From: Gammaproteobacteria bacterium
GTDB taxonomy: Bacteria > Pseudomonadota > Gammaproteobacteria > SZUA-229
Direction: 5' to 3'
DNA length: 64,000 bases
NCBI GenBank assembly: GCA_016744065.1
Contig: JADGFA010000016.1
Span: 1-64,000, forward strand
Shown here: in pieces, positions 30,665 through 43,301 of the stretch
How positions within the stretch are numbered: position 1 is the stretch's first letter
How the letters are laid out: the number at the start of each line of letters is the position of its first letter
Notes under the pieces: generated by a model
The model's database searches: none
What the model was told of the DNA's origin: nothing
Seen by the model: only the letters and a program-made list of their open reading frames with translations
Program-made: the position numbers and the translations under genes

Positions 30665-31234
30665 CTACCAGGGTGCAAATGAATTCATAAAGTCCATAGG
30701 CCTGGAAACATTACTGTTCATAACAGATATGTCATAACGCATCTGATTCATAGACATGGAAATATTTCGCATGTTTTTATTCATTTCATTAATATGTACA
30801 ACCTGTGTTTGCATAACCTGTGTCATCTGATTCACATCACCGGAAATCTTTTGCATATTACGGCTTATATTGACCATTTCGGTAGAAACGATAGATATAT
30901 CTTTAGTTACGCTAAATATAAGAAAAAAACCATATATTGCCAACACAACAAAGCTAAACATTGCTGGATAAACAATTAACTGCCAGCGTTTGGCACTTGC
31001 AGTAAATGTATTAGTTAAATCATCTAGACTCTTACTTAAAATTGATTCAACACTATCCTTTATCGTATCATCGTAATAACCAAACATTGATAATTTTTTA
31101 TCACAAATATCTGGTGCATTAGGACATGTGTCAGGATCAGCAGTGCACCCTTGCGTGCCTGGCTCACACTCAATTGCTTCAATTATTACCTCACGAACAT
31201 TTTTTATTTTTCTAGGCTTATGATCTTCGTTCAT
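30665..31234 (-). CDS. Unrecognised membrane protein with C-x6 tetracysteine motif and Met-rich coiled coil
   Basis: 189 aa of no family I can name. The basic N-terminus is followed by four cysteines at 23, 30, 37 and 44, exactly seven residues apart, in a Pro/Asp/Thr-rich stretch. A single transmembrane helix spans about 86-109. The C-terminal half is a Met/Asn-rich predicted coiled coil (about 110-175) ending MDFMNSFAPW. The positive-inside rule puts the cysteines in the cytoplasm and the coiled coil in the periplasm. It is the last gene of the ParA-TPR group (37 bp after the TPR gene) and could link cytosolic ATPase dynamics to the envelope (inference). Confidence 0.7.
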   Translation of the reverse strand: MNEDHKPRKIKNVREVIIEAIECEPGTQGCTADPDTCPNAPDICDKKLSMFGYYDDTIKDSVESILSKSLDDLTNTFTASAKRWQLIVYPAMFSFVVLAIYGFFLIFSVTKDISIVSTEMVNISRNMQKISGDVNQMTQVMQTQVVHINEMNKNMRNISMSMNQMRYDISVMNSNVSRPMDFMNSFAPW

Positions 31235-31270
31235 TACTATTACTATCTCTATTTAATTTAATGGAAAAGA

Positions 31271-32083
31271 TTAACTTGTCTGATTTAATTCAAGCTGCAA
31301 TTTATCTGCAGTTTCTGTATCCAGCCCACGAATAATCCTTAATAGATGTTGTGCCTGATAAGCATCATTTATTTTATTTAATTTTAACGCCGCATTATAA
31401 TAAGCATCACTCGCTTTCTTCCACTTAGATTGCATATAATACAAATTACCTAATTCGCCATAAGCATTAGGGTCTTCGCTTACTACTTCTGTTAGTTGTA
31501 TATAAGCTATTTCAGATTTTTTCAAATCACCATTCCAATAAGCAAGACGAGCTTTAAACAATAATTCCTGCGCATCCAATAACGATGACTTATTAGCTGA
31601 ATCATGCTGCGCCTCTTCTCTGATAAAATCACTCAATGCTTCACTCACAGTGTTTTTCACAGCATTAACGATTTCATCAACGGCTAAAGCACTTTCAACC
31701 TCACCTACAAGCACTTCATCTTCCGTAACAAAATCAGGTTGAGACTCAATATCTTGCTTTTCACTATTAAACTGATCCGGCAACGGCTGCCGAGATGAAT
31801 AATCATTATAATTAGTCACATATTTATTTTTAGAAACATCATCTTTTTCTATTTCTTTACTTGCTACTGAAGATTTAAAATATTGGTTATATAGAGAATC
31901 GTCATTAGTAGCTAACTGATATGATGGCACAACAAAACCAATAGAGTCCGAAAGATCATCAATAACTTTATCTATCGGTTGATTAAAACTTTCCGTAAAT
32001 ATAAAAGCACGATAATAAATCAAAGCCAGTATTGGAAACAAATAAATCATTAGCCATAATATTTTTTTAAGTAAACTAGTCAT
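31271..32083 (-). CDS. Membrane-anchored TPR protein
   Basis: 270 aa. An N-terminal transmembrane helix (about 9-28, ILWLMIYLFPILALIYYRAF) is followed by a long polar, acidic linker. The C-terminal TPR-like helices (about 165-260) include LLFKARLAYWNGDLKKSEIA and AYGELGNLYYMQSKWKKASD. It starts 12 bp after the ParA gene and precedes the tetracysteine gene. Fixed spacing suggests the three function together; a scaffold or adaptor role is inferred. Confidence 0.75.
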   Translation of the reverse strand: MTSLLKKILWLMIYLFPILALIYYRAFIFTESFNQPIDKVIDDLSDSIGFVVPSYQLATNDDSLYNQYFKSSVASKEIEKDDVSKNKYVTNYNDYSSRQPLPDQFNSEKQDIESQPDFVTEDEVLVGEVESALAVDEIVNAVKNTVSEALSDFIREEAQHDSANKSSLLDAQELLFKARLAYWNGDLKKSEIAYIQLTEVVSEDPNAYGELGNLYYMQSKWKKASDAYYNAALKLNKINDAYQAQHLLRIIRGLDTETADKLQLELNQTS

Positions 32084-32095
32084 TTTTAACTCCAG

Positions 32096-32719
32096 TTAAG
32101 CTAGCTCAACATATAACGCTGACGCTAGCATATTAAACTCTTTTGCACTTTTACTATTAGGTGCAATCTCATTAATAGACATGCCTTCACTTAGAGTACG
32201 TCTAAACATCGTCCTCTGACAAAGCCTGTAAGGTAGAACTTTAATGCTTTTTATACCGTTTAAAGCTTCTTCTGTTTCATCAGATTCACGCACAATTTTA
32301 TTAGTATCTGCACGGTTAACAAACGCCAGTAATTCTAATGCTTTATTATCTGGAACACATTCTTTAACAATTTTTAAAAATCGCTGTGTAGCCCATAAAT
32401 CTGGCTGACTAGGTGAAACAGGAATTAGCACACGATCTGCCTTACTTATTGCTTTTTTCATATCCTGCATATTTGAAGCCCCCACATCAATGAGTATATT
32501 TTTATCAAAACAATGATACAGTTCATTAATATCTGTTAATACATCAAGCTCTTCAAATTGTTCATCTTTTCTTACCTCAGCAACATCTGACAAAGTCCCC
32601 TGAGGATCAAGATCAAACGTTGTAACATGCTCACCCTGCTCTTTAAGCCAAAGCGCAAGATTAAATAAAACCGTACTTTTACCTGATCCACCTTTTAGAT
32701 TTGCAATAACTGTAATCAA
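32096..32719 (-). CDS. ParA/MinD-family ATPase
   Basis: 207 aa from a TTG at 32719 that places the protein start directly before ITVIANLKGGSGKST, as in all ParA proteins; AGGT lies about 10 nt upstream. The longer frame starts at 32785 inside the preceding gene. The deviant Walker A KGGSGKST has both lysines, and DLDPQGTLSD and ILIDVGA are the Walker A' and B regions. It has no N-terminal HTH, so it is a type Ib-like or orphan ParA rather than a plasmid repressor. No parB or parS-like site is nearby. Such ATPases position cargo on the nucleoid; its neighbours suggest a protein or granule cargo. Confidence 0.88.
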   Translation of the reverse strand: MITVIANLKGGSGKSTVLFNLALWLKEQGEHVTTFDLDPQGTLSDVAEVRKDEQFEELDVLTDINELYHCFDKNILIDVGASNMQDMKKAISKADRVLIPVSPSQPDLWATQRFLKIVKECVPDNKALELLAFVNRADTNKIVRESDETEEALNGIKSIKVLPYRLCQRTMFRRTLSEGMSINEIAPNSKSAKEFNMLASALYVELA

Positions 32720-32726
32720 TGTATAT

Positions 32727-33527
32727 CTACCTGTATTGTTGCGTCGGGTTTGTCGGCATTTGATGAGATGACCTCTGCTGTACACCGTATAAAGGCAATT
32801 GATCTGGACGTATCATTTTATAATTATCAGGAACATCAAAAATAGTTTTCTTCTGTATTCCCACTTTTATATTCTTTAACTCTCTGACATAACCACCTGG
32901 TAACTCTTCTTTTATAGAAATCTCCAATTGAGGGTCATACCATTGATACGAACAAACCGTTGAGCCATCAGGGCGACTGATCGTTCTTATCCATCTTTCT
33001 GTTTTGCGACCATTTATTTTTTCTTTTTTTTCCAGCTTCATTTCAGCCATAGAACCATCATTAAAAAACTCACGTATTGCCAGCTGCCTTTTTACATCCA
33101 CCCAATGTAATGTCCTAATATGCTTTCCCTGCTTAATAGCAACAATTTGCCATTTCTGTGTATCTCTTCCATTTATAAACTCATTACCCAACAAAGCACA
33201 GGTTACATTTTTAATTCGATTACAGGGGCTATTATCCTGATCAACCCTTTGCTTCTCTACTGACATTTCAATATATTGCTGATGCCTGGTATTTATCTTT
33301 ATCATTTTTCCTTTAAAAGGAAAAATGATATCAATAATAACCCCATCACGTGTCTGCACCTCTGTACGCACCGCATTTTTCCCAACAAATAATTTACTTA
33401 TGGTGGAATCCTGGCCTGGTATAGATACAACAGCATCCGCTGAAAACTCTTTATCAACAATTGAAGCATAACTAATATCAGTTAAGCTTGCTAACATCAC
33501 TGACAATATCAAAGATTTAAAAATCAT
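32727..33527 (-). CDS. Periplasmic DUF4412/LolA-like protein
   Basis: 266 aa with a signal peptide (about 1-21, ending DISYAS). The mature part is rich in antiparallel strands and contains KEFSADAVVSIPGQDSTISK and a repeated WxxxxxRPDGSTxxxxQWYDP-like section, resembling outer-membrane lipoprotein-sorting/DUF4412 folds that hold hydrophobic ligands. The C-terminal tail is Gln/Pro/Ser-rich. It ends 7 bp before the ParA start. The cargo is unknown; a lipid or hydrophobic carrier role is inferred from the fold resemblance. Confidence 0.6.
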   Translation of the reverse strand: MIFKSLILSVMLASLTDISYASIVDKEFSADAVVSIPGQDSTISKLFVGKNAVRTEVQTRDGVIIDIIFPFKGKMIKINTRHQQYIEMSVEKQRVDQDNSPCNRIKNVTCALLGNEFINGRDTQKWQIVAIKQGKHIRTLHWVDVKRQLAIREFFNDGSMAEMKLEKKEKINGRKTERWIRTISRPDGSTVCSYQWYDPQLEISIKEELPGGYVRELKNIKVGIQKKTIFDVPDNYKMIRPDQLPLYGVQQRSSHQMPTNPTQQYR

Positions 33528-33739
33528 GGACTTTGCCTACTAGATATCACATTAAAATCAATTAAAAACATCTTTTAATATACACCTGAACTTTAATTTA
33601 AACTTTTAATCAGAAGTTATAATATAGCTCTGAACAAAACTACACATATATCTATATTTACAAATCACAAAACATTTTAGATACATGCTTAAATTTAATA
33701 AACGTACATCCCTGTACATTTTAATAACATATTAATTAC

Positions 33740-34195
33740 TTACTGAGCGGGTGCAGGCACGGGTGCTGGCACTGGTGCTGGGCCATAACCTGGATAACCA
33801 CCATAAGGTGCTCCATAACCATAAGGCGCACCATAGCCATTTCCATAAGGCGCGCCATAACCATAAGGTGCACCATTTCCATAACCATTAAAACGGTTAT
33901 ACCCATTATAATTATAATTATTATTACCATATCCATTACCATAACCGTTGCCATAACCATTACCACGGCCATTTCCATTCATATTAAAATCCATTCCACC
34001 ATTTCCAAGAAAGTCCCCCATTCCCCAGCCGTTACCATTACCATTACCATTATTATTCCAGCCATTATTATTACCCCAGCCGTTATTACCTCCGCCATTA
34101 TTATTGAAGGGCCCCCACCATGCATCTGCCACCATTGGGGTAGCAAGTGCTCCTAATAGAGCTACTGCTGATATAATTTTAGATATTTTTTTCAT
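33740..34195 (-). CDS. Sulfur globule protein-like Gly/Asn/Tyr-rich secreted protein
   Basis: 151 aa. The signal peptide (about 1-25) ends MVADA and the mature protein starts [11 protein letters not shown], the typical start of sulfur globule envelope proteins of purple and colourless sulfur bacteria. The body consists of Gly-Asn and GYGNGYGN repeats followed by [15 protein letters not shown] repeats, and it ends in an Ala-Pro-Val tail ([13 protein letters not shown]). Sulfur globule proteins coat periplasmic sulfur stores. The assignment rests on composition and the WWGPF start, since repeats give little homology. It is preceded by two near-palindromic copies of the sigma-54 activator operator core. 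Confidence 0.75.
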
Positions 34196-34252
34196 CGTAA
34201 AGTCCTCGATTGTAAGTAGATAAAATTTTTCCTGAAGATCTTTATCTTCTAA

Positions 34253-34285
34253 TCAAACATGTTGCGGAAAATTCAACATGCGGCA
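34253..34285. promoter_or_regulatory. Two imperfect TGCAACATGTTGCA-like sites upstream of the sulfur-globule-like gene
   Basis: TCAAACATGTTGCG (34253-34266) and TTCAACATGCGGCA (34272-34285) each match 11 of 14 positions of the core of the perfect palindrome at 41861-41880. Their centres are 19 bp apart, about two helical turns. They lie 58-90 bp upstream of the start codon. I see no -24/-12 element between them and the gene. Confidence 0.5.
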
Positions 34286-34316
34286 ACTAAATCTAATTTC
34301 GATTTAAGTTAAATAA

Positions 34317-34928
34317 TCACCACCTATATGGGCTTAAATACCTCATATCAGGTCTGAAATATGGAATTCCATATCCATACCCAGGATTTGCATACATTGG
34401 AGAAAAACCTGCCGAATTAGTATAAGTGGGAAAACGCCCAACTATTGGTAATAAAGATGGATTCCTATTTGGATTCAATAACAAATTATCATTGCTAAAA
34501 ACTTGATACTTAGGCTTTTTATTAGCATGTACATTATTATTCACTATTGATTCTTTATTATTTTTAATAATTTTTTTAGAAAATTTATCAGGTACAACTC
34601 CCCATGGACGCACACCATTAATACCAGGAAAATCATTATCTGCTGGTTTTTTTATTGCCCAGGGATTAACCGATTTTCTCTGCGGTTCAGTTAATGAAAA
34701 TCTTCTTGTGTCATAATTTTCTGTAGCAACAGAAGCATATTTCATATTATTTTGTAACATAAAATTTGAACCACTTTTCCATTTTTTCAGATCATAAGTT
34801 TTACCCATATCATTATGATTAGCATGTGTTCTATACACCCTGTCATAGTCACTAAAGCCTGTAACAGGAAACAACACGAACATTGAAAAACCAGAAATTA
34901 ACATGATTTGTATTTTAAATTTATTCAT
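34317..34928 (-). CDS. Unrecognised secreted protein, Asn/Pro/Tyr-rich
   Basis: 203 aa with a signal peptide (about 1-25). The mature protein has no domain I recognise. It contains NPWAIKKP and RPWGVVPDKF short Trp-Pro motifs around 90-115, a basic Asn-rich middle, and a Tyr/Pro/Gly-rich C-terminus (MYANPGYGYGIPYFRPDMRY) ending in YRW. The Gly/Tyr-rich end is compositionally like the neighbouring sulfur-globule-like protein, so a structural partner of the same extracytoplasmic assembly is possible. It lies 24 bp downstream of the next secreted-protein gene. Confidence 0.65.
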   Translation of the reverse strand: MNKFKIQIMLISGFSMFVLFPVTGFSDYDRVYRTHANHNDMGKTYDLKKWKSGSNFMLQNNMKYASVATENYDTRRFSLTEPQRKSVNPWAIKKPADNDFPGINGVRPWGVVPDKFSKKIIKNNKESIVNNNVHANKKPKYQVFSNDNLLLNPNRNPSLLPIVGRFPTYTNSAGFSPMYANPGYGYGIPYFRPDMRYLSPYRW

Positions 34929-34952
34929 AAACCCCTCTTAAAACTGAATTTA

Positions 34953-35882
34953 TTATCGTGAATATTGATTATATGGGTTAGTATTTGGCTGCCTCATAAA
35001 CATCGGAACTGATACAGGTGGATATTGTCGGGCTAAAGGCATATTAAAACCAGGTGCTCGATATAGTTGATTACCCTGAAAACCTCTCTGATACATACCC
35101 TGGGGCATAGGACGATAAAATTGATTAGAAACATTGTTTCTTTGAATAGCCTGCTGCTTATACATCATAGGGTGCTTCTGCATGATGTTTGGCTGTAGCG
35201 CTCTACCCTCTGATTTTTTCGGCGCCTCATTAAAAAACACAGGCTGTTTTATAGTGTAATTATATGGTGAGGCTGCTTTACCCTGAACTCCATAACCGGC
35301 AACAACTGAATTTTTTTTCATTATTTCCAATTGTTTTTGTTGCTGACTTATCATTCTATTTTTAATCCAGTCAGGTAACTCTTTAATTTTTTCAATTTCA
35401 TTTTTCTGATTTTCAGAAAACCGGCTTAATTCGTCCTGCCAGTATTTTTTCATTTTTTTGTTATTTTCAGTAATCCATTTTTTACTTTCTTCATTCCGCT
35501 GCATTGCTAATGCATCTATTTTTTTTAAATATTCTGAAAAATCATTTTCATTTTCTTTATTACGACTCTCATTATCTTTAAACATTTTTTCTATTTTATC
35601 TCTATTTTCCTGCTGCTTACCCTGCCATTCTGATTCATTTAAGACTCCACTATTAACAGGAAAATTACTAAAGTTTTGAAGCATCATACTTTTATTATAA
35701 TTATAAGGATTAACCTTTCCCTGACGTGAACCAAATGGAACAAATATGGGAGGTGAATTACTCATAATAGACTTGTATGGACCAGGTGGCGGCATAATCT
35801 GATTACTTTCAACCACCGTTGCCTTTAGCTGCATGCTTACTAGTATTAACCCTGCTATAGATATTACCTTTACCATTTTCAT
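34953..35882 (-). CDS. Unrecognised secreted protein with charged helical core and Pro/Met/Tyr-rich ends
   Basis: 309 aa with a signal peptide (about 1-21). The N-terminal part is Pro/Asn-rich (PPPGPYKSIMSNSPPIFVPF). The centre (about 85-195) is a highly charged Lys/Glu/Asn helix or coiled coil. The last 110 residues are rich in Met, Pro, Gln, Tyr and Arg (PMPQGMYQRGFQGNQLYRAP). No known family is recognised. It follows the RND pump gene by 53 bp and precedes the other secreted protein by 24 bp, so it belongs to the same transcription unit. A disordered matrix or envelope role is inferred from composition only. Confidence 0.65.
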   Translation of the reverse strand: MKMVKVISIAGLILVSMQLKATVVESNQIMPPPGPYKSIMSNSPPIFVPFGSRQGKVNPYNYNKSMMLQNFSNFPVNSGVLNESEWQGKQQENRDKIEKMFKDNESRNKENENDFSEYLKKIDALAMQRNEESKKWITENNKKMKKYWQDELSRFSENQKNEIEKIKELPDWIKNRMISQQQKQLEIMKKNSVVAGYGVQGKAASPYNYTIKQPVFFNEAPKKSEGRALQPNIMQKHPMMYKQQAIQRNNVSNQFYRPMPQGMYQRGFQGNQLYRAPGFNMPLARQYPPVSVPMFMRQPNTNPYNQYSR

Positions 35883-35935
35883 AACCTTATCCTACTAAAT
35901 TCGTTTATTACCCGATTAAAACCATAAGCTTAAAC

Positions 35936-38900
35936 CTATGATTTATCCCCTGAGTCATTTTCATCAATATCGTTTTTTAACTGAATGCCTCTACGTTTCT
36001 TTACTACGGATTTTTTCTTAGGTAGCGATTTTTTCTTTGTTGCGGCCTTCTTTTTAGGCGCTTTCTTTTTAGGCTCTTTTTTAGAAACTGGTTTTTCTGT
36101 TGTTTTTTTCTGCCTGGCTTCTGGCTCCGAAGGCTCTGGCGGCATGTCAACAACTGCCTCTGAAGCATATTCAGGTGCTACACCAAATACACTGTCATAA
36201 GACATTTTCACCATCATTACTAACATACGACCTATATAAAACAACCATGTTGCTCCATTTATTACAGCAGAATAAAGACTCATCCATAATGGTAATTTAT
36301 ATTCTTCTGGTTCATCTCGATAAACAATAATGTCACCATTAACATCACAGCAATAATAAAAATGTTTCTTAATACTGATACAACCTAGTGGAATAACTAT
36401 CAGTGTTAATATCGTTGCAACACCAGCACCAAACAACAAACTAACTGCCATACCCTTAAAAATAAGGTCATCAAGAATCATGTATGAGCCGGCCATTAAC
36501 GTTAATGCTGTAATTAAAATAGGACGCATACGCGCCTTACCCGCATTAATAACAGCTTCATTTATTTCACGACCTTCAGAGACTTCGTGTTTTACAAACT
36601 CAACCAGTAAAATCGAATTTCTAACAACAATACCTGCGAGTGCAATAAAACCAATCATAGAGGTTGCTGTAAATTCAGCACCTGTAATCATGTGTCCAGG
36701 AATAATACCAATTAAGGTAAGTGGAATAGGTGCCATGATCAGACCACCCAATGTAAAATCCTTAAATTCCCAGACAATTAAACCGTAGATAAGCAACATG
36801 GCCGCCATAAATGCCCCGCCCATATCACGAAAAGTTTCATAGGTTACTGTCCACTCCCCTCCCCACTCAAACGCAGACTTAAAATCATCTTCTGGTGGCC
36901 CAAGTAACCCCATGGGCATACCTGTTATAACTTCTCCATCAGGTGTTACATAGTTTTCCAGTAAATCTTCAACAGCAAACATACCGTAAATAGGCGCACC
37001 CAAACGCCCTGTCATTTCACCTGTTACATATTCAACATCACGTAAATCTTTGTGGTAAACAATTGGGTCCTCTGTTGCACGCACAAAACGACCTAATTCA
37101 GTTAAAGGAATTGACTCCTCATTTACGCCGATAATTGGCATATTACCCAGACGGTTGATTTCAGAACGAACCCCCATAGGAGCCTGAATTACGATATACG
37201 TAGGCTCAAGAAGCCTTCCTTTTTTAACATCACCTAATTGATAACCCCCCATAACCATTGCAAGGGTCTGATTTATTTTATTTACAGATACACCCAGACG
37301 CGCTGCTTTTTTAGTATCAACTTCAAAGCGCCAGTAGTCATACTCATCTGTCATGTAATTATCAACATCAACAATACCTTCTGCCTGTTCGAAAATATTA
37401 GTCATGTCTTCTGCTACCTGACGACGCGTTCTTTCATCAGGACCATAGATTTCTGCAACAACCGTCTGTAAAACAGGTGGTCCTGGAGGCATTTCAACAA
37501 TCTGAATTTTAGCCCCCAGCTCATCAGCAATTGGCTTTAGTAATTCACGGGCATTAACTGCAATATCATGACTCAAACGCTCACGGTCATTTTTATTCTG
37601 TAACATTATCTGAATATCAGCCTGCCATGGTTGCTTACGCAAATAATAATGCCGTACCATGCCATTAAAATTAAATGGTGATGCTGTACCAACATAAGTT
37701 TGAATGGACGTTATTTCAGGAATCTCCTGTAACTTTGTAGCCAAACGTGAAGTTAAATTTGCAGTTACTGGCAATGCCGTTCCCTCAGGCATATTAACAA
37801 CAACATTAAATTCAGGTTTATTATCAAACGGCAACATTTTTACAGTCACTGCCTGTATAGAAAAAAGCCAACAAGATATAACGGTTAATACAATAAGTGA
37901 GACTAAAAAGGCATTGCCTATAAATTTATTATTTATAAGCGGTTTAATAACAGGTTCATAAAAACGCCCAATCAGTGCAATTTGTTTTTCTTCTTTTTTC
38001 TCAGCTTTTTTCAATGCTTCCAGGTCAGGTCGTAAACGCATTGCAAACCAGGGAACAAAAATAAAGGCTGCAAGTAAAGACAAAAACATGGCGACAGAAC
38101 CTAGTACAGGTATTGGACGCATATAAGGCCCCATAAGGCCACTGACAAACCCCATGGCGAGTAACGCAGCTATAATCGCGAATGTAGCCATGATAGTCGG
38201 ATTACCTACTTCACGAACCGCATCAATTGCAATATTAGTTGAGGTTACACCTGCTTTTAACCACCGACGAAAAATATTTTCTACCACAACAGTTGCGTCA
38301 TCTACCAGAATACCAATGGTAAATACCAGTGCAAATAAACTCACTCGGTCAATCGTGTAGTCAATTATCCAGGCGCCCCAGATAGTCATTAAAATAACAA
38401 CAGGTATAACAAAAATAACAACAGATGCTGCACGTATGCCTAAACCAATAAGACATAAAATAGCAACTGCTACAGTAGCCTCAAATAATGCCAGTAATAA
38501 TTCATTAACTTTATCATTAGCCGTTTTTCCATAATCTCGAGTAATACTTACTTCAACATTATCTGGAATCAGGTGTCCTTTTAATGAATCCAGTTTGGCA
38601 ATAAGTGCTCTTGCAATTGAAACACCATTGGTACCCAGTTTTTTGGCTACTGCAATCGTTACCGCCTGTGAACCTGTCGTTCTGGGGCCATCACCCTCAA
38701 AGGCTGGCCCCGTTGCATATGTAACCATTTGAGACGTTTCTTCTGGTGCCTGATAAACATGGGCTATATCACGTACATAAACCGGAGAACCATTACGAAC
38801 AGCAACAACAAGATTTGCTACGTCCTGCGCATTATTTAAAAATGCACCGGTATAAACATTAAACGTTCTGTTTGCGCCTTCAATATTCCCTGCAGATATT

Positions 38901-39607
38901 TCACTATTAGCTGTTTTAATTGTATTCGCAACTTCCTGAATACTAATACCAAAACCATTCAAACGTTCTGGAGAAACCTCTATACGTATTTGATCTGCAC
39001 GACCACCAACAATAAAACCTTTACCTGAATTTGGAACCTGCTCCAGTTTTTGTAAAATATCCAGTGATAATGTTCTCAATATGGCATCATCAATAAAAGG
39101 ATCTTCTGACCAGACTGTTGCAGTAATAACGGGCACATCATCAGGGCCAACTGGTTTTACCAGTGGCATTGATACACCTGGGGGAATAACATCTAAATTC
39201 GATTGAATTTTATCGTGAATTTTTACAATAGATTCACCGAGATCTTCACCTACAAAAAACTGTGCAGTTACAATACCTGAGCCACGTGAACTCGAAGAAT
39301 ATACATGGCGAACACCTGGAATTTCACTGATCATTCTTTCCAGTGGATTTATTGCAAGATTAGCAATTTGTTCTGCCGATGCCCCAGAGTACTGCACAAA
39401 AATATCAACCATCGGTACAGATATTTTTGGATCTTCCTGGCGCGGAGTAAACATTAAACCGATCAAACCGATTATCAGAAAAGCAGCCATTAATAAAGGC
39501 GTTACTGGAGAATTAATAAACTGGCGGGTAATTCTACCTGCTAACCCCAGGTTATTTTCATCCAGTTCGATATCGCCTGTTTTATTATTATTTATTTCAT
39601 TTGCCAT
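35936..39607 (-). CDS. RND efflux pump, inner-membrane subunit, with Lys-rich C-terminal tail
   Basis: 1223 aa, longer than the usual 1030-1050. It has typical RND architecture with twelve helices and two large periplasmic loops. The proton-relay aspartates are present in GILVDDATVVVENIF, and GIVVRNSILLVEFVKHE is the second conserved block. After the last canonical helix there is a short Cys-containing loop, an additional hydrophobic segment (about 1100-1130), and a Lys/Pro/Ala-rich tail of about 60 residues resembling histone H1 tails. It should form a tripartite exporter with the adaptor encoded just upstream; no outer-membrane factor gene is present here. The substrate is unknown. Confidence 0.88.
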   Translation of the reverse strand: MANEINNNKTGDIELDENNLGLAGRITRQFINSPVTPLLMAAFLIIGLIGLMFTPRQEDPKISVPMVDIFVQYSGASAEQIANLAINPLERMISEIPGVRHVYSSSSRGSGIVTAQFFVGEDLGESIVKIHDKIQSNLDVIPPGVSMPLVKPVGPDDVPVITATVWSEDPFIDDAILRTLSLDILQKLEQVPNSGKGFIVGGRADQIRIEVSPERLNGFGISIQEVANTIKTANSEISAGNIEGANRTFNVYTGAFLNNAQDVANLVVAVRNGSPVYVRDIAHVYQAPEETSQMVTYATGPAFEGDGPRTTGSQAVTIAVAKKLGTNGVSIARALIAKLDSLKGHLIPDNVEVSITRDYGKTANDKVNELLLALFEATVAVAILCLIGLGIRAASVVIFVIPVVILMTIWGAWIIDYTIDRVSLFALVFTIGILVDDATVVVENIFRRWLKAGVTSTNIAIDAVREVGNPTIMATFAIIAALLAMGFVSGLMGPYMRPIPVLGSVAMFLSLLAAFIFVPWFAMRLRPDLEALKKAEKKEEKQIALIGRFYEPVIKPLINNKFIGNAFLVSLIVLTVISCWLFSIQAVTVKMLPFDNKPEFNVVVNMPEGTALPVTANLTSRLATKLQEIPEITSIQTYVGTASPFNFNGMVRHYYLRKQPWQADIQIMLQNKNDRERLSHDIAVNARELLKPIADELGAKIQIVEMPPGPPVLQTVVAEIYGPDERTRRQVAEDMTNIFEQAEGIVDVDNYMTDEYDYWRFEVDTKKAARLGVSVNKINQTLAMVMGGYQLGDVKKGRLLEPTYIVIQAPMGVRSEINRLGNMPIIGVNEESIPLTELGRFVRATEDPIVYHKDLRDVEYVTGEMTGRLGAPIYGMFAVEDLLENYVTPDGEVITGMPMGLLGPPEDDFKSAFEWGGEWTVTYETFRDMGGAFMAAMLLIYGLIVWEFKDFTLGGLIMAPIPLTLIGIIPGHMITGAEFTATSMIGFIALAGIVVRNSILLVEFVKHEVSEGREINEAVINAGKARMRPILITALTLMAGSYMILDDLIFKGMAVSLLFGAGVATILTLIVIPLGCISIKKHFYYCCDVNGDIIVYRDEPEEYKLPLWMSLYSAVINGATWLFYIGRMLVMMVKMSYDSVFGVAPEYASEAVVDMPPEPSEPEARQKKTTEKPVSKKEPKKKAPKKKAATKKKSLPKKKSVVKKRRGIQLKNDIDENDSGDKS

Positions 39608-39743
39608 CTTGATAACTCAGTTAATTATTTTTCAGCTTAAAATATCAGTCCAACAGCTATTTTTAAAAACTTTACATTTTATAAAAACAGTTAACCCCAA
39701 TACTTCACTGATATGTAATATTCTCTATCACTACTACACAGTT

Positions 39744-41159
39744 TTATTTTTTCAAAACCCACCCGGATCTCATACCCGGGTGTGGATTAATAAAAATATT
39801 TTCACCCGGCTGAACGCCAGCAAGAACCGCTATATGCTTATTGTCTACCTGATCACCTAACCTGACGAGTCTCAACTCTGCTTTGTTTTCAGCGTTAAGC
39901 ACAAATATCGCAGGCAAGCTTCCACGATGAATAATGGAGGATAAAGGAATAACGGGCATATTATTAACTGGAGTATTTATATCCGGTATCATTACTTCAG
40001 CATACATACCCGGTGCACCGGGTGCGCCTTCAGGTAATTCAAATTTTACGGTCACTGTATGGCGTTGTTTGTCTGCTGTTGGAAAAATCTGTATAACGCG
40101 TACATCGATATATGTATTACCAACATCGAGTTTTGCTGGCACAATCGTGCCAAGATTTATTGCTGATACAAGTCGTGCCGGTACTTCCACTTCCAATTGA
40201 AGAAAACGTGTATCTGAGTACTTAATCAGAGCTTGACCACGCTGTACCGTGTCACCTGTTTCAGTCAGTTTTTCAACAATCACACCTTCAAAAGGACTAA
40301 TAGAACGGGCATCACGTAAATGCGTATTAATTTCATTTACTTTAGAACGCATAACCATAATATTGCTTTTAGCCATACTGATATTATTTTCACTTGTATA
40401 TCGGTCAAGATCCCTATGAATCCATGGATTTAACTGGGTATTAGGATATTCAAGATTATAAACCTGCTGCCTGGCGGCAGATGGCATCACGACTGATGTC
40501 TGTGCAGGGGAAGGCATGTTACCGCCCCCCATGCCCATGAACCGATCGAACATCATTGGAAAGTAACCCATGCCAGAACCCTGCGCTGGTGCAGGAGCTG
40601 ATGCTACTGCAGGTGCTGGCATAGAACCATAGAGTTTATTTTTCTGATCATTATAATCACGGTAGGCCTGGGGTGCCCAATACTCTTTGGTATAGTTTAC
40701 TTTTGCATTACCAAGTGATGCCTCAGTTTTATATAAATTAGCAACTGCCTGTTCTCGTTGAGCTAAAATATTGTCATGATTAAGTGCAACGAGAATTTGT
40801 CCTTCATCAAACCAGTCACCTTCTTCACCCGCAATATAATCAACTCGACCTGACATCTGCGCGGTTAAAACAACTTCTTTATCTGCAACAACTGTTCCTC
40901 CCAACACAACATGTGCTCCCATTTTAATATTGGAAACAGCAACAATTTGTGGCTCCATCAAATCTTGCTTATATCGCTGACTATAACCAGCAACAGGCGC
41001 CTGATAAACCTGTAGAGGCTGTCGAGAATTAACTACTGGTTGATTGAGTGAGTTTTTTGAAAAATTTTGATAATAACCTGTATCTGCAGCATTTAATGCT
41101 GATGAGATACATAATGGTGATGAAATTAATACTATCTTAAAAATTTGTTTCATTTTCAT
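39744..41159 (-). CDS. RND periplasmic adaptor (membrane fusion protein) with low-complexity insertion
   Basis: 471 aa with a signal peptide (about 1-24). The lipoyl halves are VVLTAQMSGRVDYIAGEEGD and ARSISPFEGVIVEKLTETGD, and a beta-barrel and membrane-proximal domain follow (RGSLPAIFVLNAENKAELRL). The coiled-coil hairpin between the lipoyl halves is interrupted at about 160-250 by an Ala/Pro- then Met/Gly-rich segment (GYFPMMFDRFMGMGGGNMPS). It is 136 bp upstream of the pump gene. The unusual insertion could alter docking to the outer-membrane channel. Confidence 0.88.
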   Translation of the reverse strand: MKMKQIFKIVLISSPLCISSALNAADTGYYQNFSKNSLNQPVVNSRQPLQVYQAPVAGYSQRYKQDLMEPQIVAVSNIKMGAHVVLGGTVVADKEVVLTAQMSGRVDYIAGEEGDWFDEGQILVALNHDNILAQREQAVANLYKTEASLGNAKVNYTKEYWAPQAYRDYNDQKNKLYGSMPAPAVASAPAPAQGSGMGYFPMMFDRFMGMGGGNMPSPAQTSVVMPSAARQQVYNLEYPNTQLNPWIHRDLDRYTSENNISMAKSNIMVMRSKVNEINTHLRDARSISPFEGVIVEKLTETGDTVQRGQALIKYSDTRFLQLEVEVPARLVSAINLGTIVPAKLDVGNTYIDVRVIQIFPTADKQRHTVTVKFELPEGAPGAPGMYAEVMIPDINTPVNNMPVIPLSSIIHRGSLPAIFVLNAENKAELRLVRLGDQVDNKHIAVLAGVQPGENIFINPHPGMRSGWVLKK

Positions 41160-41286
41160 ATAATCACATTCTGAAGCTATTTTAACTTTTTATATAAATT
41201 ATGCTTCCCGGCGTCTAAAAACTAATCAGTACTTTTAATAATTAATTTTCATACGCTACTCCATCAGCATACAATTCAGACTGGTT

Positions 41287-41679
41287 TTAAATTTTTCCAA
41301 ATAAAGAAAAACTTTTAATAAAAGGACCCGCCATACGTGGGTCTTTAATCATGGCTGAGTAATCACCCACATTAAATTTTAACTTTTTAGTTGTATAAGC
41401 CATACCAAGCCCCATCATGCCTAATGGTTTTTTTGTCCATTTTTCCCAATTAGCTTCAGTCGCACGCAAGTCCCAATTCAACTCCTGCCCATCGTAAGCA
41501 CCCGATGAAACAACCTCTCCCTCCTTTACATCTATATATCCCATAGGTACATCTGCGCCATCAATACCATAACCAATAACTGAGTTAAAACTAATTTGCT
41601 TCAGCGCATCTGCCAAACCAGGCTCCTGGTTCCAGGCTTCACCGTATTTATTCATCCAGTCTTCAGTAAACATGCTCAT
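41287..41679 (-). CDS. SCP2-like sterol/lipid carrier-type protein under a sigma-54 promoter
   Basis: 130 aa, cytosolic, with the small alpha/beta SCP2-type fold suggested by GYGIDGADVPMGYIDVKEGE, an ENWEKW-like ANWEKW motif, and LKFNVGDYSAMIKDPRMAGP. Such proteins bind lipids, acyl-CoAs or other hydrophobic molecules. A consensus -24/-12 promoter lies about 40 bp upstream and the sigma-54 activator is divergent, so this is the first gene of the regulated unit. The adaptor gene follows after 127 bp. A role in delivering hydrophobic cargo to the RND pump is inferred. Confidence 0.7.
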   Translation of the reverse strand: MSMFTEDWMNKYGEAWNQEPGLADALKQISFNSVIGYGIDGADVPMGYIDVKEGEVVSSGAYDGQELNWDLRATEANWEKWTKKPLGMMGLGMAYTTKKLKFNVGDYSAMIKDPRMAGPFIKSFSLFGKI

Positions 41680-41719: not shown

Positions 41720-41735
41720 AGCAACATGCATGCCA
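41720..41735 (-). promoter_or_regulatory. Sigma-54 (-24/-12) promoter
   Basis: The minus strand reads TGGCATGCATGTTGCT, matching the RpoN consensus TGGCAC-N5-TTGC at all invariant positions with correct GG-N10-GC spacing. It is about 40 bp upstream of the SCP2-like start codon and faces away from the adjacent sigma-54 activator gene. Confidence 0.85.
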
Positions 41736-41805: not shown

Positions 41806-41860
41806 TAATTTTAACCTCTACAGCTAAGAGCCTTATTTCATAGCCATTTGAAAAATTGAA

Positions 41861-41887
41861 CAATGCAACATGTTGCATTGTGTTGCA
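41861..41887. promoter_or_regulatory. Perfect 20-bp palindrome plus extra half-site: candidate enhancer for the sigma-54 activator
   Basis: CAATGCAACATGTTGCATTG is a perfect 20-bp palindrome (41861-41880), followed immediately by a further TGTTGCA half-site (41881-41887). It lies about 150 bp upstream of the -24/-12 promoter, the classic distance for enhancer binding, and about 70 bp before the activator gene, so it could also mediate autoregulation. Confidence 0.75.
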
Positions 41888-41926: not shown

Positions 41927-41959
41927 ATGAGAGAAACCAAGAAGCATACAAATGACTAA
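41927..41959 (+). CDS. Possible 10-codon leader ORF overlapping the sigma-54 activator start
   Basis: An ATG at 41927 with GAGGT 7 nt upstream opens a 10-codon frame (MRETKKHTND) whose stop (41957-41959) overlaps the activator ATG at 41952 in another frame. The activator itself has only a weak AAGAAG ribosome-binding site, so re-initiation or coupling is plausible. There is no evidence that the peptide has a function. Confidence 0.35.
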   Translation: MRETKKHTND

Positions 41960-43301
41960 AAAAAATAAATTCGACTTTGCACCTATGGCTAAAACAGTTA
42001 TTCAGTATATAGATGAAGGGATTATCGTCGCTGATCAACTAGGTAAAATTCTCTATTACAATGAAGCTGTTAAAAAATTACTGGATATAAAAAGCAGCGT
42101 AACTTTGGAAAAATTAAATGATATAGGTAAATTTAATTTACAAAAATCATTACTTCGAGCCGCTATAGACTCTGGAGAAGTAGATGCTGCTGGCAAACCC
42201 AGCGGTAATTTTGTTACTTTTGAAGAGCGTATAAAACATCAGGATACATATAAAATTATAGAAATTACCAGCGGTTTAATTTCAGATAATGATTCTAAAG
42301 ATCGAAAACGCTTACTATTATTTAGTGATAAAACAGACTCTCATCATATACAGGCTGTATTAAATCCATCGGGTGCTAACCTTTCAAGTAAAGACCCACA
42401 GATGCTTGAAATAATTAACCGTATACAACAAATAGCACCGACTAATGCATTCACTTTATTACAGGGTGAATCGGGTACAGGTAAAACCCAGTTAGCCCGT
42501 TTAACACACAACCAGAGCCAACGCAGCAAAGAAGCTTTTATAGAAGTTAACTGCGCCGCTATACCCGATGCATTATTAGAGTCCGAATTATTTGGACATA
42601 TTAAAGGGGCTTTTACCGGCGCCAGTTCTGATCGCTTAGGGCGCTTTCAAAGTGCAAACAAGGGCACTTTATTTCTTGATGAAGTCGGAGAAATACCGCT
42701 ACACCTTCAGGCTAAATTACTACGTGCTATTCAGGAACAGGAATTTGAAATGGTAGGATCGGACAAAACAGTAAAAGTTGATGTTCGTATTATTGCCGCT
42801 TCAAATAAAAACTTACGCGACATGGTCGACAATGGAAAATTTCGAGCTGATTTATATTATCGTCTTGCTGTAATAGCTATAACAGTGCCTGCATTACGTG
42901 ATCGGCCTGGTGATATACCTGTTTTAATTCAACATTTTTGCACTCAACTACATGACCGTGGCTACCCTGAAAACATGAAATGCAACCAGGATGCTATGAG
43001 AATGATGATGGATTATCCCTGGCCAGGAAATGTTCGAGAGCTTGAAAATGCAGTTGAGCACGGAATTATCTGCGCTAAAAATGGTATTGTTTTTCCAGAA
43101 AGCTTACCTCAGGACATAAGAGAATACTCATCTGATATTAATGTCTTTGTAAAAATTTCTGATGATGAAGAAAAAACAATTAGCGAAATACAAAAAGCCA
43201 TGACAAGCTGCAAAGGAAATAAAGCTGAAGCTGCTAAAATACTCGGCGTGAATAGAACAACATTATGGCGCTGGATTCAAAAATATAATATTTCAGTATA
43301 A
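41952..43301 (+). CDS. Sigma-54-dependent transcriptional activator (PAS-AAA-Fis)
   Basis: 449 aa. An N-terminal PAS-like sensor (about 12-125, IDEGIIVADQLGKILYYNEA) replaces a receiver domain, so it is not a phosphorylation-type response regulator. The AAA+ domain has Walker A GESGTGKT (172-179), the sigma-54 contact loop GAFTGA (219-224), Walker B LFLDEVGEI (240-248) and the WPGNVRELENAVEHG box. A Fis-type HTH is at the C-terminus (KAEAAKILGVNRTTLWRWIQ). All activity motifs are intact. It probably activates the divergent SCP2-RND-globule cluster through the palindrome in the intergenic region. The ligand of the PAS domain is unknown. Confidence 0.93.
   Translation: MTKKNKFDFAPMAKTVIQYIDEGIIVADQLGKILYYNEAVKKLLDIKSSVTLEKLNDIGKFNLQKSLLRAAIDSGEVDAAGKPSGNFVTFEERIKHQDTYKIIEITSGLISDNDSKDRKRLLLFSDKTDSHHIQAVLNPSGANLSSKDPQMLEIINRIQQIAPTNAFTLLQGESGTGKTQLARLTHNQSQRSKEAFIEVNCAAIPDALLESELFGHIKGAFTGASSDRLGRFQSANKGTLFLDEVGEIPLHLQAKLLRAIQEQEFEMVGSDKTVKVDVRIIAASNKNLRDMVDNGKFRADLYYRLAVIAITVPALRDRPGDIPVLIQHFCTQLHDRGYPENMKCNQDAMRMMMDYPWPGNVRELENAVEHGIICAKNGIVFPESLPQDIREYSSDINVFVKISDDEEKTISEIQKAMTSCKGNKAEAAKILGVNRTTLWRWIQKYNISV

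Follow-up and report, generated by a model that had tools for sequence, protein, structure and literature searches.

Sulfur globules are a large energy store in many sulfur bacteria and animal symbionts, and a locus in the gammaproteobacterial assembly GCA_016744065.1 (lineage SZUA-229) raises the question of how they might be formed and placed in the cell. In the window (positions 1 to 64,000 of contig JADGFA010000016.1, 64,000 nucleotides in all), ten contiguous minus-strand genes code, among others, for a ParA ATPase, a resistance-nodulation-division (RND) pump with a C-terminal tail and a secreted protein of the sulfur globule protein (SGP) family. The initial annotation had placed these ten genes at 30665-41679, where all ten open reading frames (ORFs) do sit, and suggested a machine that forms and distributes sulfur globules or exports a hydrophobic cargo. 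Sequence comparison with relatives reveals a conserved cluster that is limited to sulfur oxidisers and tied to globule proteins, in which ParA is paired with a peptide motif in the pump tail and which is preceded by a sigma-54 promoter-like site. On these comparisons, the link to sulfur globules and the pairing of ParA with the RND pump are well supported. That the cluster is a sigma-54-controlled operon which makes and places periplasmic sulfur globules, with ParA acting via the RND tail, is given about an even chance of being correct. The central features are:

35936..39607, minus strand: RND pump (AcrB/HAE-like) of an ortholog family specific to sulfur oxidisers (ACR_tran 9e-138)
35939..36358, minus strand: C-terminal extension of the RND pump, a hydrophobic/amphipathic segment followed by a Lys/Ala/Pro-rich, disordered-looking tail
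35975..35995, minus strand: RRGIQLK, a conserved motif of the tail (relatives have RRGI[RK]LK) and the candidate docking/activation peptide for ParA
33740..34195, minus strand: secreted, Gly/Asn/Tyr-rich protein of the sulfur globule family with the core DFNMxGxGRGxGYG (PF17228 5e-7)
32096..32734, minus strand: ParA ATPase with an intact deviant Walker A motif (KGGSGKST) and a DLDPQ motif (CbiA and NF041546 matches)

Distribution among sulfur oxidisers and the tie to globule proteins

In a sample of 303 gammaproteobacterial genomes, orthologs of the RND pump (at least 50% identity, more than 1000 bits) are separated by a clean gap from other RND proteins (at most 44% identity, below 925 bits) and occur in 62 genomes, one of which (G183) was counted from a fragment with 59% identity. 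The sulfur oxidation markers dsrA and soxB are found in 100 and about 124 (123 above the cut-off) of the 303 genomes, respectively. All 62 RND genomes encode dsrA (54) or soxB (56), and the RND ortholog is missing from all 164 genomes that encode neither (Fisher P ~8e-26 over the 303 genomes, a value that ignores shared ancestry). Proteins of the PF17228 family are encoded in 48 genomes, 44 of which are RND-positive; of the remaining four, three encode the coiled-coil protein of the cluster and one is congeneric with two RND-positive genomes. With globule genes located on the same contig as the RND left out of the count (complete chromosomes kept all of theirs), 40 of the 44 genomes with globule genes were still RND-positive (odds ratio 33, P ~2e-14 among 139 sulfur oxidisers, likewise ignoring ancestry). 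An SGP counterpart lies between the RND and ParA genes in most clusters, and the cluster copies have a common core, a W-G-rich region followed by xFNMSGRGxGxGYG. The sulfur-globule-like label given to the window protein is upheld by its PF17228 score of 30.9 bits, against a cut-off of 26.7.

The source genome (3.88 Mb, 94 contigs) encodes dsrA and soxB, with no match to soxC, and contains three PF17228 proteins on three contigs; the two outside the cluster are located at G000:C6:21465-21776 and G000:C76:1747-1962. The absence of SoxCD was set aside as an explanation of the RND distribution, since soxC is present in 6 of the 56 RND-positive soxB genomes versus 18 of 68 (P 0.04), which favours it weakly.

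The pump tail motif and its pairing with ParA

In most of the RND orthologs, 100-350 residues follow the twelfth transmembrane helix (TM12) as a Lys/Ala/Pro-rich, barely alignable stretch that ends in RRGI(R/K)LK or a sequence near it. Among the first 26 RND sequences, the motif, at times in a slightly varied form, is present in all those from ParA-bearing clusters, and of the five from clusters without ParA four lack it. The motif pattern was derived from this first set and slightly widened, and the later set, some 50 additional RND loci together with 20 from a second proteobacterial class, represents new data. Counted locally, ParA and the motif occur together in 47 loci, neither occurs in 17, the motif occurs without a same-strand downstream ParA gene in six, and ParA is found without the motif in none. 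Locus L099 (G056:C6) was scored as motif-bearing despite a frameshift in its RND gene just ahead of the tail, the motif being intact in another frame. At one of the six motif-only loci (L183), ParA is encoded at the same locus in divergent orientation, while in the other five it is encoded elsewhere in the genome, with matches of 1e-88 to 1e-98 in G284, G177 and G015 and more diverged forms (1e-61 to 1e-63) in G232 and G084. ParA is also encoded elsewhere (1e-92) in G032, where the contig is too short for the local test, and in both G177 and G032 a globule gene adjoins the ParA gene that lies away from the RND.

Three genomes with the motif in which ParA was unseen at first (G215, G048 and G238) served as prospective cases, and ParA was then found in all three. 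Among the genomes with only motif-less RNDs, ParA searches found none in G178, G205, G080, G141, G102, G219 and G109, and the best match in G226 reaches just 1e-27. At the genome level, with two RNDs scored per genome and tail-less second RND copies set aside, 59 genomes contain both ParA and the motif, eight neither, one the motif only and one ParA only, such that ParA is present in 59 of the 60 motif-bearing genomes and absent from eight of the nine motif-less ones. The RND tree contains five supported independent contrasts, with none discordant. In G154 (L133 and L141), the sole genome in which ParA was found and the scored RND tails have no motif, a block of DUF4412, ParA, TPR and coiled-coil genes is located apart from the RND gene.

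The form of the tail differs among the loci that lack the motif. At L055 and L058, which have no ParA gene, it is shortened to fewer than 30 residues, and at L133 it is Lys-rich. The basic tail is kept and the motif gone at L048, likewise without ParA, which argues that the motif is separable from mere basicity. Two RND paralogs without the motif or an adjoining ParA gene (L122 and L137) end in a helix-hairpin-helix-like domain containing ISGIGPKIE, which we take to resemble the C-terminal extension of NuoE.

The C-termini of RND proteins are normally cytoplasmic. Eleven of 40 motif-bearing tails, mostly from the second class, have no hydrophobic segment between TM12 and the motif, and in these the motif should therefore be cytoplasmic; the tail of the Magnetococcales-type RNDs adjoins TM12 directly and should likewise be cytoplasmic. 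About half of the 40 tails do contain a hydrophobic or amphipathic segment, the window RND has a borderline one, and a positive-inside argument would favour a cytoplasmic location for the Lys-rich tail.

The wider cluster and its control region

The cluster extends beyond 30665-41679, in that a divergent sigma-54 activator gene and a promoter-like site also belong to it. The remaining features are:

41952..43301, plus strand: divergent regulator with a PAS-like N-terminus, a sigma-54 activator AAA+ domain and a Fis-type helix-turn-helix (Pfam Sigma54_activat 4e-69, HTH_8 4e-11, weak PAS_8 0.0025)
41860..41881, no strand: perfect 22-bp palindrome ACAATGCAACATGTTGCATTGT, candidate activator binding site (GTTGCA/TGCAAC recurs in relatives)
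41720..41735, minus strand: sigma-54 promoter-like site TGGCAT-N5-TTGCT (10/11 consensus), 40 bp ahead of the first gene
41287..41679, minus strand: SCP2-like small protein with no signal peptide (Foldseek 2cx7; 60-78% identity in relatives)
39744..41159, minus strand: RND periplasmic adaptor (membrane fusion protein, MFP; RND_mfp, TIGR01730, 1e-36)
34953..35882, minus strand: secreted protein of 309 aa with a PPPGPY motif and a charged helical region (positional counterparts with PPPGPY in relatives)
34317..34928, minus strand: secreted protein with NPW and RPWG motifs (positional counterparts in relatives)
32727..33527, minus strand: DUF4412 periplasmic protein with a LolA-superfamily fold and a conserved Cys pair (PF14371 1e-6; 9tp6 LolA3)
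31271..32083, minus strand: single-TM protein with a C-terminal TPR-like region (TPR_16 0.002), this region being conserved in relatives
30665..31234, minus strand: membrane protein with a coiled coil and a C-terminal SRPMxFMNSFxPW conserved in relatives

The initial annotation had made synteny in relatives a check on its proposal, which the proposal withstood: gene order is conserved over many families, in about 30 gammaproteobacterial loci and in the 20 loci of the second class. The full order is divergent sigma-54 regulator, SCP2, MFP, RND, small secreted proteins, SGP, DUF4412, ParA, TPR, DUF302 (PF03625), coiled coil and dynamin-family GTPase (PF00350), the DUF302 and dynamin-like genes often forming part of the cluster and the latter occurring in most relatives. 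A ParA scan of species genomes yielded nine loci, one of them from Magnetococcales, and further genes of the cluster accompany ParA at all nine. These are DUF4412 together with the coiled-coil protein or, on one truncated contig, with a membrane protein where TPR is otherwise encoded, and the RND and adaptor are present wherever the contig extends that far. In a phylum sample outside the Gammaproteobacteria, ParA was matched at E <1e-83 in 27 genomes, and the 20 regions read mostly have, contig permitting, the order SCP2-MFP-RND-DUF4412-SGP-ParA-coiled coil. These second-class loci are probably Magnetococcia, given that the RND tree places them with locus L010 of Magnetococcales.

Forty further regions were retrieved via the coiled-coil protein, of which about 27 are true clusters and the rest contain a coiled-coil paralog alone. 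This protein is encoded in 72 of the 303 gammaproteobacterial genomes, partly as paralogs in other contexts, and was dropped as a cluster marker in favour of the RND ortholog. The lone paralogs occur in sulfur oxidisers (L054, L060-L067, L076-L079 and L085), and some appear to adjoin a 3-hydroxyisobutyrate-dehydrogenase-like gene. At L050, L051 and L052, from one genus, predicted P-II-like, CBS-domain, xerC and dsbC-like genes follow the cluster in fixed order, and in the ParA-free cluster L058 a gene for an MlaC-family lipid carrier (L058:4082-4684; PF05494, 9e-13) directly follows the dynamin-like gene. No RND ortholog was found in G116 (L043 and L148; 99% complete), a genome that encodes the coiled-coil protein along with a diverged ParA.

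The sigma-54 promoter-like site matches 9-11 of the 11 consensus positions in all 14 regulator-bearing loci examined, where it lies upstream of the first gene or at the start of an over-long ORF. The regulator ortholog diverges from the cluster in many relatives. The 22-bp palindrome sits between the promoter-like site and the divergent activator gene, and GTTGCA/TGCAAC repeats recur upstream of the clusters of relatives. As the promoter-like sites are found at all of these 14 loci and the repeats recur, the operon is very likely a single sigma-54 regulon unit with its own activator. Scans for sigma-70 promoters and terminators gave results at or below chance or were uninformative.

The cluster proteins were searched with Pfam and NCBIfam profiles, and folds were matched by Foldseek on predicted models. 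Most of the labels in the initial annotation stand, including those of the AcrB-type RND pump and its adaptor (values as listed) and of ParA (CbiA 2e-14; NF041546 ParA_partition 4e-39, which is under the cut-off of that model). KGG-x-GKST and DLDPQ are conserved among 11 ParA orthologs, and the closest solved structures are ParF of TP228 and a ParA (E 2e-16). The ParA frame starts downstream of the longest-ORF start, with the conserved region beginning at ~32719, so that the overlap with DUF4412 is at most a few codons. The DUF4412 match is above its cut-off and the LolA-like part of that label holds at the level of fold: the best Foldseek matches of the model (pLDDT 81) are LolA3 (9tp6, E 2e-7), NE2245 and RseB, with a probability of 1.00 and low TM-scores (~0.35). 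The membrane TPR label agrees with a weak Pfam TPR match. The SCP2-like label has no Pfam match and is carried by the top Foldseek matches, to sterol carrier protein 2 (2cx7, E 9e-4, probability 1.00), on a weak model (pLDDT 63). The last gene does code for a membrane protein with a coiled coil; the tetracysteines by which it had been characterised are conserved only in the closest relatives and were dropped as its defining feature, the conserved parts being the TM segment (SAKRWExIVYP...) and the C-terminal motif. No McdB-like or carboxysome gene was found among the ten cluster genes by Pfam or NCBIfam.

Proposed mechanism, alternatives and known systems

In the proposed mechanism, the RND pump and its adaptor would form the site at the inner membrane where sulfur globule coat proteins assemble, served by hydrophobic-ligand carriers that are SCP2-like in the cytoplasm and LolA-like in the periplasm. 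Carriers of this kind on both sides of the membrane suggest that what the pump handles for the surface of the globule is hydrophobic. The RND tail would extend into the cytoplasm, where the RRGI(R/K)LK peptide at the end of its basic stretch may bind the nucleoid-bound, small ParF-like ParA and stimulate ATP hydrolysis, as the ParG and McdB peptides do. The pump would serve as both cargo and adaptor, and the pump complex with its growing globule would be distributed across the nucleoid and passed on to both daughter cells. Sulfur globules lie outside the cytoplasm (PMC10386293), so the action of the ATPase on them would have to cross the membrane. Around the globule, this membrane may be shaped or anchored by the two membrane proteins with TPR and coiled-coil regions and, in most relatives, by the dynamin-like GTPase. 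The role of the RND tail as the partner of ParA is proposed by analogy, as McdB engages McdA via a short basic peptide (PMC12204374) and ParF is activated through an arginine-finger-like motif in the flexible tail of ParG (PMC7308502). From the above, we infer that the tail is probably cytoplasmic in all members, that ParA would bind it with positioning as the result, and that the cargo may be hydrophobic. The fuller picture, that of a periplasmic-globule organelle machine in gammaproteobacterial sulfur oxidisers and Magnetococcales, with the pump tail as ParA adaptor across the membrane and the dynamin-like, TPR and coiled-coil proteins shaping the compartment, is tentative and held at somewhat less than even confidence.

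Several observations weigh against this mechanism. G154 encodes ParA and both of its scored RNDs lack the motif, and in G088 (88% complete) the motif is present and no ParA was found. The sign test over the independent contrasts gives p 0.06-0.13, the events being too few, and the contrast test is thus suggestive of the ParA-motif pairing rather than proof of it. A hydrophobic segment occurs in many gammaproteobacterial tails; should this segment span the membrane as a complete TM helix, the tail would lie outside. The cluster is kept without ParA and the tail motif in G205, G080, G178, G102 and G219, and in 18 of the 62 RND genomes PF17228 proteins were not detected, from which it follows that ParA is dispensable for the core function and that the globule tie is imperfect. 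PF17228 is furthermore a low-complexity family, and some of its matches may be compositional.

It is possible, if rather doubtful, that the RND/MFP pair and the carriers export to the surface of the globule a hydrophobic cargo (lipid, organic polysulfane or coat precursor) and that ParA only spreads the pumps. The carrier folds on either side of the membrane accord with such export, as do the ParA-free loci L048, L055, L058, L126 and L127, which all keep MFP, RND, DUF4412, TPR and coiled coil, with SCP2 in three of the five; since these clusters keep most of the set, the core appears to work without ParA. Export does not, however, explain the SGP gene beside ParA with the RND elsewhere in G177 and G032, and the cluster contains no outer-membrane channel gene. 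It overlaps with globule placement via the RND tail and does not exclude it. Improbable is an explanation in which the tail and ParA only partition the pumps evenly, or regulate them, in a sulfur stress unrelated to globules, such as polysulfide or metal efflux. ParA/MinD proteins do position many different cargos (PMC10241942) and RND pumps are mostly efflux pumps, but the SGP gene inside the operon and the genome-wide SGP tie outside it among sulfur oxidisers speak for a globule function. Very unlikely is joint loss of a non-interacting tail and ParA by chance or neighbouring deletion, with the basic tail binding nucleoid DNA in the manner of PhaF/AlgP, for which the KKA-rich, histone-H1-like composition and the mere five independent contrasts would speak, since it is the motif and not the basic composition that is conserved (L048 and L133 have Lys-rich tails without it) and ParA and RND are encoded at separate loci in several motif-bearing genomes.

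Searches of the open-access literature found no account of sulfur globule positioning or of globules with an RND, ParA or dynamin system, and nothing on globule nucleation, placement or inheritance was found there beyond the coat proteins; that on dynamin and sulfur offered only the statement that SUP05 genomes lack dynamin, and sulfur is unmentioned in a 2025 review of bacterial organelle positioning (PMC13052382). The conserved gene set offers a specific ATPase, docking-peptide candidate and regulator through which globule nucleation, placement and inheritance can be tested directly.

Among known systems, the pump and adaptor share the full AcrB domain and RND_mfp adaptor of the HAE/AcrB-type RNDs, from which they differ in forming their own ortholog clade restricted to sulfur oxidisers, in the C-terminal tail and in a cluster without the channel gene. 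The globule-family protein resembles SgpA-D of Allochromatium vinosum (PMC10386293) in its Pfam SGP match and secreted, Gly/Tyr-rich character. The gene for the most abundant globule protein, sgpD, there adjoins the gene for an exporter of hydrophobic/amphiphilic compounds, a neighbourhood that, compared by description, fits this RND cluster; ParA, TPR and coiled-coil partners are unreported in A. vinosum. The PhaF/PhaM/AlgP tethers (PMC13052382) likewise belong with storage-granule genes and have a C-terminal tail that is histone-like and rich in Lys and Ala, whereas the tail here is part of a membrane pump, ends in a conserved motif and goes together with an ATPase. ParF/ParG of TP228 (PMC7308502) provides the nearest solved ParA relatives and, in the tail of ParG, the arginine-finger-like motif, but includes a centromere-binding protein and DNA cargo that have no counterpart here. 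In McdA/McdB (PMC13052382, PMC12204374), a ParA-family ATPase gene also lies beside the genes of a protein-coated inclusion and the partner bears a basic, disordered terminal peptide; here, by contrast, a periplasmic cargo is proposed and the candidate adaptor is the tail of a 12-TM RND pump rather than a soluble McdB, which, if true, would extend ParA positioning to cargo across a membrane.

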